This document shows positions 2,135 through 10,653 of a stretch of DNA of 64,000 nucleotides, in pieces; the first letter of the stretch is position 1, and each line of letters opens with the position of its first letter. The notes below the pieces were generated by a model that was not told the origin of the DNA, ran no database searches, and saw nothing but the letters and a program-made list of their open reading frames with translations. The stretch is taken from positions 62,001 through 126,000 of the forward strand of contig NZ_FOOK01000004.1 in NCBI RefSeq assembly GCF_900113175.1, written 5' to 3'. Source of the stretch: Planifilum fulgidum. Its GTDB lineage: Bacteria > Bacillota > Bacilli > Thermoactinomycetales > DSM-44946. The position numbers were made by a program, and so were the translations under genes.

Positions 2135-2149
2135 TTGAGAGGTGTCGCA

Positions 2150-3787
2150 ATGGAAAGGATCAGGGCAGCCCGCGGTTCCGCCCTTCGCTGCAAGGGGTGG
2201 AGACAAGAGGCGTTGCTTCGGATGCTGGAGAATGTGCTGGAGAACGGCGAGAATCAGCGGGAACTGGTGGTTTATGCCGCGCTGGCCAAAGCGGCGCGGG
2301 ACTGGAAGTCGTATCATGCCATCGTTGAAAGTCTGAAAATTCTCAACGAAGATGAAACGCTTGTGATCCAGTCCGGCAAACCGATCGGCATTTTCAAAAC
2401 GCATGCGTTTGCCCCGATCGTGATCATGGCGAATTGCAACCTCGTCGGAAAATGGGCGGACAGCGAGCATTTCTATCAGCTGCAGGAAAAAGGGTTGATC
2501 ATGTGGGGCGGTCTTACGGCGGCGGCATGGCAGTACATCGGGTCGCAAGGGGTGATCCAGGGCACCTACGAAATCTTTTCCGCCATCGCCAGAAAGCATT
2601 TTGGCGGCAGTCTGGCGGGACGCTTCATTCTGACCGCCGGTTTGGGCGGAATGGGGGGCGCGCAGCCGTTGGCCGGCGTGATGGCAAACGCGGCGATCCT
2701 CTGTGTGGAGGTGGATGAGGCGCGCATTGACAAGCGGATGAGGGTCGGTTATCTGCAGCGGAAAACCGCCGATCTCGATGAAGCGCTGGCGTGGATCGGC
2801 GAAGCCAAGGAGAAGAATGAAAGCGTTTCCGTCGGCCTGCTGGGCAATGCTTCCGAGATTTATCCGGAAATCCTTGGCAGGGGAATCGTCCCGGACATCG
2901 TCACCGACCAAACCGCCGCCCACGATCTTCTCTACGGTTACGTCCCGGCGGGTTACAGCCTGGAAGACGTTCAACGGATGCGAAGGGAGAACCCGGAGAA
3001 ACTGCAGGCCGACGCGGGGGCTTCCATCGCCCGTGAAGTGGAGGCGATGCTGGAGTTTAAGCGGCGCGGTTCGATCGTGTTTGACAACGGGAACAACATT
3101 CGGACGCAGGCTTTCCGCCACGGCGTGAAGGATGCCTTTGACATCGAAATCTTCACGGAGGCGTTTTTGCGACCGCTTTTCTGCAGGGCGATCGGTCCCT
3201 TCCGCTGGGTTGCCCTCTCCGGAGATCCGGAAGACATTCGAAGGATCGATGAGATGATCCTTCGGGAGTTTCCCGACAATGAGATAGCGGTCAACTGGAT
3301 CCGCCTGGCCGGAAAATATGTGCCCTTTGAAGGGCTGCCGGCGCGCATCGGCTGGTTCGGTCACGGGGAGCGGACCCGACTGGCCCTGGAGGTCAATCGA
3401 ATGGTGCGCGAGGGCAGGCTGAGCGGCCCCATCGCGTTTTCCCGTGATCACCTGGATGCCGGCGCGATGACCCACCCCAACATCATGACCGAGCGGATGA
3501 AGGACGGGAGCGATGCGATCGCCGATTGGCCGCTGTTGAACGGGATGCTCAACTGCTGTTCGATGGCGGATCTGGTGGCGATCCACTCCGGGGGCGGGGG
3601 ATACGCGGGGTACATGACCAGCGCCGGCGTGACGGTCGTGGCCGACGGCACTCCGGAGGCGGACATCCGCTTGAAACACGCGCTGGACAACGACACGGGC
3701 ATCGGAGTGTTGCGCTATGCCGATGCCGGTTACGAAGAAGCGCTGGATGAAGTGCGCAAAAAGGGCCTTCGCCGGGTGTTGACCTGA
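2150..3787 (+). CDS. Urocanase-family hydratase, predicted (S-methyl-)thiourocanate hydratase
   Basis: The 545-residue protein aligns end to end with urocanate hydratase (HutU), an NAD+-dependent cytoplasmic enzyme. It keeps the NAD-binding motif GLGGMGGAQP (164-173), the loop FKTH (82-85), YIGSQGVIQGTYE (129-141) and MKDGSDA. Substrate-side motifs differ from classical urocanase: YGQMT reads WGGLT (119-123), TASGATW reads CCSMADL (469-475) and HHGGG reads HSGGG. No hutI or hutG is nearby; instead a DUF917 gene, a betaine-type transporter, an MIO-less lyase, a hydantoinase and a carbamoylase follow. Known relatives hydrate thiourocanate or S-methyl-thiourocanate in ergothioneine breakdown, which fits better than plain histidine use. 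ATG at 2150 follows GAGAGGTG. Family certain, substrate inferred. Confidence 0.85.
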   Translation: MERIRAARGSALRCKGWRQEALLRMLENVLENGENQRELVVYAALAKAARDWKSYHAIVESLKILNEDETLVIQSGKPIGIFKTHAFAPIVIMANCNLVGKWADSEHFYQLQEKGLIMWGGLTAAAWQYIGSQGVIQGTYEIFSAIARKHFGGSLAGRFILTAGLGGMGGAQPLAGVMANAAILCVEVDEARIDKRMRVGYLQRKTADLDEALAWIGEAKEKNESVSVGLLGNASEIYPEILGRGIVPDIVTDQTAAHDLLYGYVPAGYSLEDVQRMRRENPEKLQADAGASIAREVEAMLEFKRRGSIVFDNGNNIRTQAFRHGVKDAFDIEIFTEAFLRPLFCRAIGPFRWVALSGDPEDIRRIDEMILREFPDNEIAVNWIRLAGKYVPFEGLPARIGWFGHGERTRLALEVNRMVREGRLSGPIAFSRDHLDAGAMTHPNIMTERMKDGSDAIADWPLLNGMLNCCSMADLVAIHSGGGGYAGYMTSAGVTVVADGTPEADIRLKHALDNDTGIGVLRYADAGYEEALDEVRKKGLRRVLT

Positions 3788-3820
3788 CACATCAAATTCT
3801 GTATGGGAAGGGGAACGTTC

Positions 3821-4909
3821 ATGAGAGTATTGACCAAGGACGATGTCATCGCGGCAGTGAAGGGGGGCTCGGTATTTGCTTCCGGCGGGGGAGGCTGGGT
3901 CGATCACGGATTGGAAATCGGAGAGGCGGCCGTCACGATCGGGCAGCCGAAGTTGGTGTCGGTCGACGAGCTGCCGGATGACGCCATCATCGTCACCTGC
4001 ACGGCGATCGGCGCACCCGCCGGGGACCAGTGGCAGATGCTGGGGAGCGATTATATCAAAGCGGTAAAACTCTTGATGGATCACTACGATGGCAAAGTGG
4101 TCGGGGTCATGACGCCGCAAAACGGCATGTCCAGCACAATAAACGGCTGGTTGCCCGCTGCCGCCCTCGATCTGGTGGTGGTGGACGCGACGGGAGACAT
4201 CCGGGCTCATCCGACCGGAAAAATGGGATCGTTGGGCCTGTCCGGCCGCCTGGATTTTGAAACGATCCAAGTGGTGGTGGGCGGAAGGAGAGACACCGGC
4301 TCCTACCTGGAGCTCGTCGTCAAGGGAACGCCCGCAAAAACCTCCACCATCCTGCGCACGGCGGCCGATATGTCCGGCGGATTCATCGCGGCGGCGAGAC
4401 ATCCTCTTCCGGCCGGATACATCAAGAAACACGCCGCGATCGGCGGCGTTTCCATGGCGATCGAGCTGGGCAAAGCGATCCTGGTTGCCGAGCCCAAAGG
4501 CGCCGAGGCGGTGATGGAGGCGATCTGCGAGAAAACCCGCGGCGAAATCATCGGCAGGGGAGTCGTGGCTCACTCCACGGTCGCCTATTCCGGAGCCTTC
4601 GATATCGGAAAAGTTTATGTGGATGCGCCGGGAGGGCGTTTCACCCTGCATGTGATGAACGAATACATGGCGGTGGATGATCCCGGCGGAAACCGCGTCG
4701 CGACGTATCCGGACGTGATTACGACGCTGTCCGCGGAGACGGGGCAGCCGGTCAGCGTCGGCCATCTCAAGGAAGGGATGGAGGTTGCAATCTTCCATAT
4801 CCACAAGCGTCACATTCCGATCAGCTCGGGCGTCCTCGACGCTTCCGTATATCCCGAGGTGGAACAGGCGCTGGGCATCAACATTGCCGATTATGCATTG
4901 GCGAAGTAG
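3821..4909 (+). CDS. DUF917 protein, predicted S-methyl-thiohydantoin desulfurase
   Basis: The 362-residue protein belongs to the DUF917 family: N-terminal GGSVFASGGGGWVDHGLEIG, central GTPAKTSTILRTAADMSGG, and a C-terminal half with HKRHIPISSGVLD. These proteins are usually encoded beside hydantoinases, and the family has been linked to S-methyl-thiohydantoin desulfuration (hydrolysis to a hydantoin and methanethiol). In this operon it would act on the product of the preceding hydratase and hand hydantoin-5-propionate to the hydantoinase at 10668. ATG at 3821 is preferred over ATG at 3803 because GGAAGGGG lies seven bases before it. Family confident; the reaction is inferred from family and neighbours. 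Confidence 0.78.
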   Translation: MRVLTKDDVIAAVKGGSVFASGGGGWVDHGLEIGEAAVTIGQPKLVSVDELPDDAIIVTCTAIGAPAGDQWQMLGSDYIKAVKLLMDHYDGKVVGVMTPQNGMSSTINGWLPAAALDLVVVDATGDIRAHPTGKMGSLGLSGRLDFETIQVVVGGRRDTGSYLELVVKGTPAKTSTILRTAADMSGGFIAAARHPLPAGYIKKHAAIGGVSMAIELGKAILVAEPKGAEAVMEAICEKTRGEIIGRGVVAHSTVAYSGAFDIGKVYVDAPGGRFTLHVMNEYMAVDDPGGNRVATYPDVITTLSAETGQPVSVGHLKEGMEVAIFHIHKRHIPISSGVLDASVYPEVEQALGINIADYALAK

Positions 4910-4984: not shown

Positions 4985-5629
4985 ATGGAAATAGCCGAGC
5001 AAGCTTACAGGTACATTTTGGATAATCAGCAGCGCTTCGTGGAAGCGGTTCAGGATCATTTGACGTTAAGCTTTGCCGCCTTGCTGATCGGCCTTGCGAT
5101 ATGCATTCCGCTCGGCATCCTTTGCGCGAAAAAGCAAAGGATCGCCGGAGCGGTGATGAGCTGTGTCAATTCCCTGCGCGTGATTCCCAGCCTGGCGATT
5201 CTGGTCATCATTTTGCCGGTTTTCGGGACCGGTTTTCTCCCGGCCCTGGTGGCTTTGACCATCCTCGCCTGTCCTCCGATTTTGATCAATACCTATCTCG
5301 GATTCCGCGGAATCGATCCGGCGGTGATCGAAGCGGCTCGGGGCATGGGCATGGATGAGCGTCAGATTTTGCGAAAGGTGGAAATCCCGCTGGCCATGCC
5401 GCTGGTGATCGCCGGAAGCAAGACGGCGGCCGTGGAAGTCGTCGCGAGCGCGACGCTGGCAGCCTTCATCGGAGGAGGGGGATTGGGCACGTTTATCGTA
5501 AACGGACTCGGCATGTACAATTTTCCGATGTTGCTGGTCGGTGCGGTTCCGGTCGCCCTCTTGGCGATCTTGTCGGAAGTGTGTTTTGCAGGGATTGAAC
5601 GGTTGGTCACCAGGCATCAGAGAGGCTGA
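4985..5629 (+). CDS. Betaine-type ABC importer, permease 1 (OpuCB-like)
   Basis: This is a 214-residue membrane protein with about five to six transmembrane segments. It carries the cytoplasmic coupling motif of importer permeases (EAARGMGMDERQILRKVEIP, about 118-137) and the glycine-rich GGGGLGTFI stretch typical of the OpuC/ProW family. It is the first of four consecutive transporter genes (permease, lipoprotein, ATPase, permease), the arrangement of OpuC-type carriers of quaternary amines. The island context suggests a histidine betaine such as ergothioneine rather than an osmoprotectant. A Shine-Dalgarno sequence precedes the ATG. The second permease at 7633 probably forms a heterodimer with it. 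Confidence 0.85.
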   Translation: MEIAEQAYRYILDNQQRFVEAVQDHLTLSFAALLIGLAICIPLGILCAKKQRIAGAVMSCVNSLRVIPSLAILVIILPVFGTGFLPALVALTILACPPILINTYLGFRGIDPAVIEAARGMGMDERQILRKVEIPLAMPLVIAGSKTAAVEVVASATLAAFIGGGGLGTFIVNGLGMYNFPMLLVGAVPVALLAILSEVCFAGIERLVTRHQRG

Positions 5630-5656: not shown

Positions 5657-6559
5657 ATGAGAAAAGCATCTTTTCTGTTGGCGCTCACTTTGGCCCTGTC
5701 GCTGCTTTTGACCGCCTGCGGCGGCGACGGGTCGGGAAAACCGGAGATCGTCGTCGGGTCGAAGAACTTCACGGAATCGCTGATTCTCGGGGAGATGTAT
5801 GCCCTCGCGCTGGAAAATGCCGGGTACGAGGTGGAGCGGAAGCTGAATCTGGGGGGGACCCTGGTCGCCCACGAATCGCTGAAAAGCGGAGAGATCGACG
5901 TGTATCCCGAGTATACCGGGACGGGTCTGATCAACATCTTGCAGATGCCGCCCAAATCGGATCCGGAAGAAGTGTACGACCTCGTTTCGAAAAACTACAA
6001 AGAGAAGTTCAACCTGGTCTGGCTCGATCCTGCGGATGTCAACGATTCGCAGGGGCTCGTGACGACGCGCAAAGTGGCGGAAAAGTACGACATGTACACC
6101 ATTTCCAAACTGGCGAAGCTGGCGCCGAAGCTGAGGATGGCGGCCGTGCCCGAGTTTGAGGAGCGGGAGGACGGTCTGAAGGGGTTGAAGAAAACGTACG
6201 GCGGAATGGAATTCAAAAGCATGGAACTTTATGACTACGGGGTCAAGTACCGCGTCCTGTTGAACGGCGAGGCCGATGTGACGGTCGGCTTCACCACCGA
6301 CGGGGATCTGACCAACAAGGAGTTGGTGTTGCTGGAAGATGACAAGAAGTTCTGGCCCCCTTACTATGTGGCCCCGGTGATCCGGGCGGAAGTGTTGGAG
6401 AAAGATCCCGGGATCGAAAAGGTGCTGAATGCCGTTTCTGCCAAGCTCAACAATGAGATCATGCAGTCCCTCAATGCCGAAGTGGACATCAAAAAGCGGG
6501 AATACGCCGAAGTTGCGAAGGAATTTCTGCAAAAAGAGGGCATCATCTCCGGGAAATGA
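5657..6559 (+). CDS. Betaine-type ABC importer, substrate-binding lipoprotein (OpuCC/OsmF-like)
   Basis: The 300-residue product has a signal peptide ending in the lipobox LLTAC, with Cys21 as the predicted lipid-anchored residue. The mature domain begins EIVVGSKNFTESLILGEMYA, the hallmark of OpuAC/OpuCC-type binding proteins for quaternary ammonium compounds. The pneumococcal ergothioneine receptor EgtU belongs to the same broad family, which fits the proposed substrate. The ligand pocket was not compared residue by residue. It would sit on the outer face of the membrane and deliver substrate to the permeases at 4985 and 7633. Confidence 0.86.
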   Translation: MRKASFLLALTLALSLLLTACGGDGSGKPEIVVGSKNFTESLILGEMYALALENAGYEVERKLNLGGTLVAHESLKSGEIDVYPEYTGTGLINILQMPPKSDPEEVYDLVSKNYKEKFNLVWLDPADVNDSQGLVTTRKVAEKYDMYTISKLAKLAPKLRMAAVPEFEEREDGLKGLKKTYGGMEFKSMELYDYGVKYRVLLNGEADVTVGFTTDGDLTNKELVLLEDDKKFWPPYYVAPVIRAEVLEKDPGIEKVLNAVSAKLNNEIMQSLNAEVDIKKREYAEVAKEFLQKEGIISGK

Positions 6560-7632: not shown

Positions 7633-8268
7633 ATGTTTGACTATTTTTTCAAGTATTATGATCAGATCTTCACCCGGTTGATGGAACATTTGATGTTGAC
7701 GGCGAGTGCGCTGGTTCTCGCCATGCTGTTCGCCCTGCCCGTCGGGTTTTTCCTCTCGCGGGTCAAGTGGCTGTCGATTCCGGTGCTGTCTTTCCTGGGC
7801 ATCATTTATGCCATTCCCAGTCTCGCCATGTTCGCGATGTTGATCCCGCTGGTCGGGTTGGGGGTGAAATCGGCGATTATCGCGCTCGTCGCATACAGTC
7901 AGCTGATCCTTGTGCGCAACGTGATGGTCGGCTTCAGGACCGTCGATGCCGCGATCATCGAGTCCGGCAAAGGGATGGGACTCAGTCCCGCCCAACTGTT
8001 TTGGAAGATCGAACTGCCGCTGGCCATGCCGGTCATCCTGGGAGGCGTGCGGATTGCCGCCGTGTCCACGATCGGAATCGCGACCATCGCCGCATGGATC
8101 AACGCCGGGGGACTCGGGGAGCTGTTGTTTGAAGGCTTGTACCAAAATTCGACCCCCAAAATGTTATGGGGAACGCTGTTTGTCTCCCTGCTGGCGATTG
8201 TCACCAACCAGCTGCTGCTCCGGTTGGAGAAGCGCTCGTCCCTGAGGGCGAGGGGCGAATTGCCTTGA
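7633..8268 (+). CDS. Betaine-type ABC importer, permease 2 (OpuCD-like)
   Basis: This 211-residue membrane protein is a paralogue of the permease at 4985. It has the motif ESGKGMGLSPAQLFWKIELP and the glycine-rich INAGGLGELLFEG stretch. It closes the four-gene transporter set. The gene lies 24 bases after the ATPase stop and 30 bases before the lyase start, so uptake and catabolism are probably on one transcript. Confidence 0.85.
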   Translation: MFDYFFKYYDQIFTRLMEHLMLTASALVLAMLFALPVGFFLSRVKWLSIPVLSFLGIIYAIPSLAMFAMLIPLVGLGVKSAIIALVAYSQLILVRNVMVGFRTVDAAIIESGKGMGLSPAQLFWKIELPLAMPVILGGVRIAAVSTIGIATIAAWINAGGLGELLFEGLYQNSTPKMLWGTLFVSLLAIVTNQLLLRLEKRSSLRARGELP

Positions 8269-8298
8269 GCCGGGGGAGACGGCCGAAGGGGGATGAGG

Positions 8299-9882
8299 AT
8301 GGCCGCACACCGGATAACGATTGACGGAAAAGGTCTTACTTTGCAACAATTGGCGTCGTTTATCGAAGATCCCTCCATCCGGGTGGCCGTATCGCCCCGC
8401 GCGATCGAAGCGGTGCAGGAGACGCGCCGCCAGGTGGAGAAATGGTTGACGGAAGAACGCAGGGTGATCTACGGGATCACCACCGGTTTGGGGAAATTGA
8501 AGGATTTTGTCGTCGATGAACGAGATCAGGAGATCTTTCAACAAAAAATTTTGTATTCCCACGCCGTGGGAATCGGCCCTTATTTTCCCGATGATGTCGT
8601 CCGCCTGGCGATGCTGCTGCGCGCAAACGTGTTGAGCCGGGGCCATTCCGGTGTGAGGCCGGAGCTGATCGAGCGGATGTTGACGTTTTTGAACGGAGGA
8701 ATCATCCCGTTGCTCCCGCAAATCGGTTCCCTGGGGGTCGGCGATCTGCAGCCGATGGCCCACCTCGGCTTGTGCCTGACCGGAGCGCCGGAGGGACGGG
8801 TGCGCTTTCGGGGAGAAGAGGGAAGCGCTGAGGAGATGTTGCGGAAGGCGGGCGTTGTACCCGTCCGCTTTCCCTTGGCCGCCCGGGAGGCGCTGGCCTT
8901 GATGAGCGGCAGCACGCTGGTCTTGGCCAACGCGATCCATGCCCATCACAAGGCGAAGCAGCTGGCCCGGCTGGCCGATGTGGCGCTTGCGCTCAATCTG
9001 GAGGCGATGCGCGGGGAAGTGAGCGCCTTTGACGAGCGAATCCAACGGGCACGGGGAATCCCGGGGCAGATTGAAACGGCGCGCAACGTAAGGACGCTTT
9101 TGAAAGGAAGCGAGTGGGTCACCGAAGAGGGGAGAAGGAGACTGGGCGAAATCCGTCCCCGGGTTCAGGATGCCGTCAGTTTTCGCGCTTCTCCGCAGTT
9201 GCACGGGGCGGTCAAGGAGGTTCTCCGCTACCTGGAAACGGTCCTTTCCAGAGAAATCAACGCCTCTGCCGACAATCCCCTGATTTTCTCCGGAGAATCC
9301 GGGTACGAGAGCCTGAGCGGCGGAAATTTTCACGGGGCGATTCTGGCTTATGCGTTGGATTTCATCGGCATCGCGCTGACCGACTTGGCCGTTTTGTCCG
9401 AGCGGCGGTCGGCGAGATTGCTCGACCCGGCGGCGAGCTACGGATTGCCGGCCAACCTGGCCGGCGGCGCGGTCGGGCTCAATACGGGCTTTGCGCAGGT
9501 GCAGGCCAACGCCGTCGCGTTGGTGGGCGAGATGCGGCTGCTCGCCGCCCCCGCCAGCATCGGATCCATCCCGGCCAAGGGCAATCAGGAAGATCACAAC
9601 AGCATGGCGATGGGGGCTGTGCGGAAGACGATTCAGATCATCGGCCATCTTGAGAAGGTGCTGGCGATCGAATTGCTGTGCGCGGCCCAAGCGATCGATT
9701 TGATCAAAGGAAAAATGAGCGGTTTCGCGATGGGAAACGGAACCGCCCTTGTCTATGAGCTGATCCGACGGCATGTTCCTCCGATGTGGGAAGACGCTTA
9801 TGTAAAAGCGGATTTGGACAAGATGATCCGCCTGGTGGAGGAGGAAACCATTTTGTGCGAAGTGAAGCACTTGCTTGCGTGA
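8299..9882 (+). CDS. MIO-less histidine ammonia-lyase homologue, predicted ergothionase-type lyase
   Basis: The 527-residue protein is a full-length member of the aromatic amino acid lyase (HAL/PAL) family. It keeps the tyrosine loop YGITTGLG (58-65), SADNPLIF and the region around PAKGNQEDHNSM. The segment that normally forms the MIO electrophile, GSxGASGDLAPLAH, reads GSLGVGDLQPMAH (143-155): the Ala-Ser-Gly triad is replaced by Val-Gly with one residue missing. A normal MIO cannot form, so ordinary histidine deamination is unlikely. Ergothionase, which eliminates trimethylamine from ergothioneine, is related to HAL and needs no ammonia elimination. ATG at 8299 is preferred over 8293, which directly abuts the Shine-Dalgarno sequence. 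Exact substrate inferred. Confidence 0.82.
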   Translation: MAAHRITIDGKGLTLQQLASFIEDPSIRVAVSPRAIEAVQETRRQVEKWLTEERRVIYGITTGLGKLKDFVVDERDQEIFQQKILYSHAVGIGPYFPDDVVRLAMLLRANVLSRGHSGVRPELIERMLTFLNGGIIPLLPQIGSLGVGDLQPMAHLGLCLTGAPEGRVRFRGEEGSAEEMLRKAGVVPVRFPLAAREALALMSGSTLVLANAIHAHHKAKQLARLADVALALNLEAMRGEVSAFDERIQRARGIPGQIETARNVRTLLKGSEWVTEEGRRRLGEIRPRVQDAVSFRASPQLHGAVKEVLRYLETVLSREINASADNPLIFSGESGYESLSGGNFHGAILAYALDFIGIALTDLAVLSERRSARLLDPAASYGLPANLAGGAVGLNTGFAQVQANAVALVGEMRLLAAPASIGSIPAKGNQEDHNSMAMGAVRKTIQIIGHLEKVLAIELLCAAQAIDLIKGKMSGFAMGNGTALVYELIRRHVPPMWEDAYVKADLDKMIRLVEEETILCEVKHLLA

Positions 9883-9894
9883 GTGGGAGGTAAC

Positions 9895-10653
9895 ATGGGG
9901 AACGGGACGCAGACGTTGGCACGGGCTTTGGACATATTGTTTGCCTTGGCGGAGGCGGAATCCACCCTTTCCGTCAGTGAAATCGCGGAAAGGGTCTCGA
10001 TTCCGGAAAGCACCACCTACCGCCTGCTTCAGACGCTGGAACAAAACGGGGTCGTGGAAAGGCGGGCAAAAGGGCAGATCGGTCTTGGACTTCGCATCCT
10101 GGATTTGGCGAGGAGTTTGTACCAGCAGATCGATCGCGAATTGTACGTCATCGCCCGCCCGGTCATGGAATCCATCACCGAGAAAACCGATGAGACCACG
10201 ATTTTGACGGTTCGCACGGGAACCAATGTGATTTGCATTCAACAGGTGGAGAGCCGCCGCCTGATTCGTTTCGCCATTGAAAACGGAAGGATCCTGCCCC
10301 TTCACCTGGGCGCTTCGGGAAAAGCCATCCTGGCTTACGAGACCGAACGGGTGTTGGATCAGGTGCTGAAGCGGATGGAAGATCCCCGACAGAAGGAGGC
10401 GTTGCTGGAAAATTTGGAACGGATTCGGCGGCAGGGCTACTGTTTGACGGTGGGGGAGGTCGATCCGGACGTGTTTGGCATCGCTGCCCCCATCTTTGAC
10501 GGGTATCGGCGGGTTGTGGCCAGTCTGACCATCGCCGGTCCGTCGGAACGGTTGCATCCCGGGACGGGTGAAATGATGATCCGGTCCGTGGTGGAGGCAA
10601 CCCGGGAGATTTCGCGGAAGCTGGCCAGAGTGTCCGCGGTGGCCATCGAATAG
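9895..10653 (+). CDS. IclR-family transcriptional regulator
   Basis: The 252-residue protein has an N-terminal winged helix-turn-helix (about 5-65, including LSVSEIAERVSIPESTTYRL) and a C-terminal IclR effector domain with LHLGASGKAILAY. IclR regulators often control catabolic operons and bind a pathway intermediate. It lies between the lyase and the hydantoinase, so it probably regulates this operon, perhaps through the palindrome at 2118-2134. ATG at 9895 follows GGGAGG. Confidence 0.88.
   Translation: MGNGTQTLARALDILFALAEAESTLSVSEIAERVSIPESTTYRLLQTLEQNGVVERRAKGQIGLGLRILDLARSLYQQIDRELYVIARPVMESITEKTDETTILTVRTGTNVICIQQVESRRLIRFAIENGRILPLHLGASGKAILAYETERVLDQVLKRMEDPRQKEALLENLERIRRQGYCLTVGEVDPDVFGIAAPIFDGYRRVVASLTIAGPSERLHPGTGEMMIRSVVEATREISRKLARVSAVAIE

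Follow-up and report, generated by a model that had tools for sequence, protein, structure and literature searches.

An ergothioneine-to-glutamate operon in Planifilum fulgidum very probably begins its catabolic steps with an ergothionase that works without MIO, to judge from the sequence of a lyase gene and its neighbours. The gene lies in a 64,000-nucleotide stretch of DNA, here called the window, as an intact 529-aa open reading frame (8293-9882, + strand; open reading frame call and translation) of the HAL superfamily. In all likelihood the lyase works like the ergothionases of T. denticola and Burkholderia, but it is of a different lineage, one that stands where they do in the operon. A paper that cites the T. 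denticola structure (PMC13405746) describes ergothionase as an MIO-free enzyme that breaks ergothioneine down into trimethylamine and thiourocanate. The principle of an MIO-free ergothionase is already known, and the idea put forward in the initial annotation, that an already quaternary leaving group could be eliminated without MIO, was of the right kind, though its principle was not new. What seems new is the predicted second, distant MIO-free branch outside the T. denticola/Burkholderia lineage.

The lyase gene and its active-site loop

The lyase gene and the two loops that matter most are as follows.

8293..9882, + strand: MIO-free HAL-superfamily lyase, predicted ergothionase (ergothioneine trimethylamine-lyase); PF00221, below HutH cut-off, AlphaFold2 fold
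8470..8493, + strand: Tyr loop YGITTGLG, residues 60-67, with Tyr60 equivalent to HAL Tyr53, followed by the invariant pair K70-D71
8725..8763, + strand: GSLGVGDLQPMAH, site of the missing MIO triad (ASG to VG); translation and alignments

Translation possibly starts at ATG 8299, whose spacing from the AAGGGGG ribosome site is better than that of ATG 8293. The loop GSLGVGDLQPMAH comprises residues 145-157 counted from ATG 8293 and 143-155 counted from ATG 8299, and the residue numbers first assigned to it hold with the later start. In alignments with HAL structures from the PDB, in which the MIO of histidine and tyrosine enzymes appears as X, the V-G of the lyase lies opposite MIO, and GSLG-VG-DL is matched with GSLG-X-DL at the cost of one residue. 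Translation and alignments confirm what had been noted at 8725-8763, namely that Ala-Ser-Gly is lost and that Val-Gly with a one-residue deletion takes its place; the tyrosine loop described as kept is indeed present.

The lyase matches the aromatic amino acid lyase superfamily profile PF00221 with 521 bits (cut-off 27.3) and fails the curated HutH model TIGR01225 (473.0 against a cut-off of 539.15). No ergothionase model is found among its NCBIfam matches, so that the gene would be annotated as HutH-like. An AlphaFold2 model with a pLDDT of 87.8, of low confidence in both active-site loops (61-65 and 426-432), has the HAL/ergothionase fold (Foldseek E 2.8e-32, Z about 41). By fold alone HAL and ergothionase cannot be told apart, since the Z values lie within about 1 of each other: P. 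putida HutH (1B8F) gives 41.6, and the T. denticola ergothionase 6S7J gives a VIA-align Z of 40.9 over 490 residues.

Operon context

Hydratase, desulfurase and a four-gene betaine-type ABC transporter are encoded upstream of the lyase on the same strand, and the IclR, ErtD-like and ErtE genes follow downstream.

2135..3787, + strand: thiourocanate hydratase (likely start 2150); NF058530 1026.8 bits, cut-off 930
3803..4909, + strand: thiohydantoin desulfurase; NF058529 604.5 bits, cut-off 440
4985..5629, + strand: ABC permease, betaine type; kept in all Bacilli orthologue operons
5657..6559, + strand: ABC substrate-binding lipoprotein, OpuAC/ProX type (predicted ergothioneine uptake); PF04069 216.7 bits
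6628..7608, + strand: ABC ATPase, ProV type; TIGR01186 331.5 bits, cut-off 326.6
7633..8268, + strand: second ABC permease; orthologue-operon comparison
9883..10653, + strand: IclR-family regulator; PF01614, PF09339
10668..12035, + strand: ErtD-like hydantoin-5-propionate amidohydrolase; best models NF058539/NF058538
12047..13306, + strand: N-carbamyl-L-glutamate amidohydrolase ErtE; NF058540 583.5 bits, cut-off 520

By its predicted products this is an ergothioneine-catabolism operon. Almost the whole gene set is conserved in the orthologue operons of Brevibacillus and Lederbergia, and the loci in Eremiobacterota keep hydratase, desulfurase and lyase; hydratase and desulfurase stand beside the lyase in every orthologue locus with a long enough flank (locus L004 ends before the hydratase). 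With the lyase under the TIGR01225 cut-off and an operon of the ergothioneine type around it, the warning that an annotation as HutH would be wrong is well supported.

The hydratase is 77% identical to PDB entry 7NED, a bacillary thiourocanate hydratase that bears the database name urocanate hydratase only. The S-methyl-thiourocanate hydratase model scores under its cut-off on this protein, as does the S-methyl model on the desulfurase (321.6, below 450), which points to ergothioneine itself as the substrate of the pathway. A different trimethylated histidine, such as hercynine, S-methyl-ergothioneine or ergothioneine sulfonate, might be the main substrate of an MIO-free trimethylamine lyase, and the distance of the lyase from characterised ergothionases and a binding protein drawn from the general betaine family would both suit such an enzyme. 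This is nonetheless unlikely, given downstream enzymes that pass the thiourocanate and thiohydantoin models while failing the S-methyl versions, the close resemblance of the hydratase to 7NED, and a matching operon elsewhere that carries a 6S7J-type ergothionase.

The binding protein is related to EgtUC (176 bits). Gly244 and Phe293 are reported to be invariant in EgtU (PMC9732360); a reading of motifs would place SK-N-F and EYTGT in the binding protein where EgtU has these residues, and if that reading is true, the protein would be an ergothioneine importer of another design. The ErtD-like protein scores 519.7 and 477.9 bits with NF058539 and NF058538, both under the cut-offs of 650 and 600 despite a clear operon context, and these cut-offs may be too stringent where Bacilli are concerned.

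Conservation of the loop and further residue changes

Eight orthologues with 54-80% identity, found in Brevibacillus, Lederbergia and Eremiobacterota, carry the loop motif GSLGVGDLQPMA unchanged, and so does a ninth relative from a further Bacilli genome (G357); a match in G377 comes from the Brevibacillus already represented by L006, and the two were counted once. The residue after the motif is H in Bacilli and Q in Eremiobacterota. Because the motif recurs in nine relatives, chance is excluded, and so is the sequencing error that the initial annotation had considered as a way in which ASG could have been hidden.

Across 136 aligned rows of HAL homologues, which include close relatives and whose counts are not independent (the tree has two or three comparable losses), a triad of the form A/S/C-S/C-G (ASG, SSG, CSG or ACG) is kept in 110, and Asn195 and Tyr280 (HAL numbering) are present in all 110 of these MIO-type rows, whereas the 26 triad-less rows (23 distinct proteins) have Tyr280 in no case and Asn195 in only four. 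Sign tests for co-loss on the tree were not significant, the independent pairs being too few. The lyase itself has Ser205 at HAL Asn195 and Val295 at HAL Tyr280, and so lacks the residues that mark a HutH. Normal histidine ammonia-lyase chemistry is very unlikely, because the triad, Asn195 and Tyr280 are lost and N194D in Geobacillus HAL is inactive (PMC11432326). That the enzyme is no normal ammonia-lyase had been proposed from the triad, and it agrees with these losses and with the presence of an MIO-type HutH elsewhere in the genome; this HutH, with GASGD and on a different contig, is the only other family member there.

A true ammonia-lyase that still forms some electrophile, or that eliminates ammonia without MIO, would explain the HAL fold and the retention of most HAL catalytic residues, but it is highly improbable: the triad position offers no Ser or Cys to dehydrate, Asn195 is replaced by Ser or Asp, of which Asp kills a related HAL (PMC11432326), and the genome already has an MIO-type HutH. 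The same losses of triad, Asn195 and Tyr280 could be read as the decay of a HutH paralogue, perhaps into a non-catalytic protein. Such decay is very improbable for an intact reading frame whose loop is the same in Bacillota and Eremiobacterota at 54-80% identity, whose Tyr60, His90, Gln292, Arg298 and Glu433 are invariant across orthologues and kept as in HAL, and which is adjoined by hydratase and desulfurase wherever the flank suffices. The K-D pair after the Tyr loop was considered as a diagnostic marker and dropped, as K or D also occurs in MIO-type HutHs.

Comparison with known ergothionases and HutH

Two marks of an ergothionase are found in the window: an MIO-free site, and an operon with thiourocanate hydratase and thiohydantoin desulfurase. 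The solved T. denticola ergothionase 6S7J has the loop S-S-I-G-E-G-D-I with the same one-residue deletion, and like the window lyase it has Ser for Asn195, a hydrophobic residue for Tyr280 and K-D after the Tyr loop, while the T. denticola/Burkholderia-type ergothionases have pathway neighbours in common with it. The loop alignment with characterised ergothionases that had been advised as a check upheld the parallel as far as the deletion in 6S7J is concerned, but the window lyase is a separate branch. The proposed elimination of trimethylamine without MIO is supported by the predicted ergothioneine operon, the loss of triad, Asn195 and Tyr280, and the deletion shared with 6S7J.

The window lyase falls outside the 6S7J lineage, with clades separated at 100/100 and about 30% identity, and by score it is closer to HutH (299.8 bits) than to 6S7J (205 bits). 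Unlike 6S7J it retains QEDH as in HAL and has Lys429, a residue confined to the window branch and its closest relatives. The lysine at chain position 383 of 6S7J is K in nine out of ten members of the 6S7J group and is replaced by Ala405 in the whole window clade, so the catalytic details must differ. HutH has Tyr60, His90, Gln292, Arg298 and Glu433 in common with the lyase, and the genome's own HutH is 44% identical to it; the window lyase differs from HutH in that ASG, Asn195 and Tyr280 are gone, in its score below the TIGR01225 cut-off and in its operon.

Exchange of the lyase within the operon

Thiourocanate hydratase scores over its cut-off in 9 of 399 Bacilli genomes. Three of the nine carry a lyase of the window type (the window genome included), in five a lyase of the 6S7J type lies close to the hydratase, with the loops GTVG-LADI, GSVG-AADI (in three genomes) and GSVG-VSDL, and one has the hydratase and a truncated desulfurase with neither lyase type nearby. 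A family scan of these nine genomes by score and place found none with both types, and no further family member in four of the five genomes with the 6S7J type. Locus L161 (G347:C2:48000-67500), at about 8000-10170, has thiourocanate hydratase and a desulfurase cut to ~145 residues, with lyase and hydrolases not nearby, and is a broken or partial operon.

The operon of G531, which has the 6S7J type, matches that of the window in hydratase (79%), desulfurase (73%), binding protein (78%), ATPase (66%), IclR (59%), ErtD (63%) and ErtE (67%), but its lyase is only 30% identical. G378 repeats this with 80% for the hydratase, 77% for the binding protein and 31% for the lyase; in the remaining three 6S7J-type Bacilli the transporter is more distant, or there is none in the stretch read. 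In G357, a genome with the window type, the identity of the lyase (68%) matches the level of its neighbours. Burkholderia arboris has a hydratase at 68%, a desulfurase at 58%, homologues of ErtD and ErtE, and a 6S7J-type lyase at 28%, and the Eremiobacterota have hydratase at 69%, desulfurase at 55% and lyase at 54%. Going by these identities, one and the same pathway has had its lyase swapped for a remote relative, in otherwise matching operons, and this exchange is the strongest evidence that both lyase types do the same job. A 2026 BLAST survey of ergothioneine breakdown started from the Burkholderia sequence (PMC13405746). Surveys from one known ergothionase are likely to miss the window branch, at about 28-30% identity.

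One loss of MIO or two

A tree was built from the alignment without its loop columns. In it the members of the 6S7J group form a single clade (100/100), and the window branch, together with two relatives from actinobacteria, is sister to a lyase of the MIO type from Agrobacterium vitis (97/90, and 91/82 when a tyrosine aminomutase outgroup is included), a placement that rests on one A. vitis sequence. The position of the window branch beside this MIO-type lyase favours two losses of MIO. Forcing all lyases with the one-residue deletion together costs 8.7 or 4.6 log units, and as the AU p values of 0.093 and 0.296 do not reject a single loss, a double loss is not established as a firm claim. 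The chances are about even that MIO was lost once in the T. denticola/Burkholderia lineage and again in the window lineage, from an MIO-type lyase like that of A. vitis, with the same deletion, the changes at Asn195 and Tyr280, and a helper lysine at 383 (6S7J) in one and 429 in the other. If the branches arose separately, they would provide a natural test of which active-site changes HAL needs for cofactor-free elimination of trimethylamine.

The A. vitis plasmid lyase (L134:5992-7605, also L168:9004-10617) is annotated as HutH. Like the window branch it has K-D and Lys429, but it keeps GASGD, Asn195 and Tyr280. Hydantoinase, carbamoylase and an ABC transporter adjoin, whereas hydratase and desulfurase are not beside it, and its substrate may be some modified histidine.

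Proposed mechanism

In HAL, MIO activates the substrate so that the beta proton is removed and ammonia leaves. The trimethylammonium of ergothioneine is already quaternary and a good leaving group, so an electrophilic MIO would not be needed. I infer substrate, product, base and the release of trimethylamine for the window lyase as follows. The ABC transporter would import ergothioneine, which would undergo 1,2-elimination: a base, most likely Tyr60 as in HAL, would remove the beta proton, and trimethylamine would depart to leave trans-thiourocanate. The carboxylate would be held by Arg298/Gln292, with Arg298 a ligand by analogy, and Glu433/His90 together with an invariant lysine, Lys70 or Lys429, would assist. 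Lys429, in whose place most HutHs have Ser, is invariant in the window branch, its actinobacterial relatives and the enzyme of A. vitis; either it or Lys70 is suggested as the helper lysine. Thiourocanate hydratase, thiohydantoin desulfurase, ErtD and ErtE would then carry the product to glutamate.

Other relatives

MIO-free HAL relatives with a three-residue deletion (GSVGYLAPEAH, GSVGYLIATSH) occur at L115:1408-3006 (G299:C41:5715-7133) and L132:7938-9488. The former, from the same genus as the window genome, adjoins an open reading frame for a BCCT-type transporter (by eye), and the latter adjoins an ABC transporter, a CoA transferase and an enoyl-CoA hydratase. The actinobacterial relatives of the window lyase (L130:7818-9581 and L133:7686-9551) have GSLGTGDLQP and an apparent N-terminal signal peptide, and the other operon genes are not nearby; they are possibly secreted MIO-free lyases. 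The surroundings of a clostridial 6S7J-type ergothionase at L118:4451-8341 (G250:C22) include a urocanase relative, 49% identical to the window hydratase, and, judged by eye, a molybdenum-hydroxylase-like protein; this locus may belong to a thiourocanate pathway of the gut.
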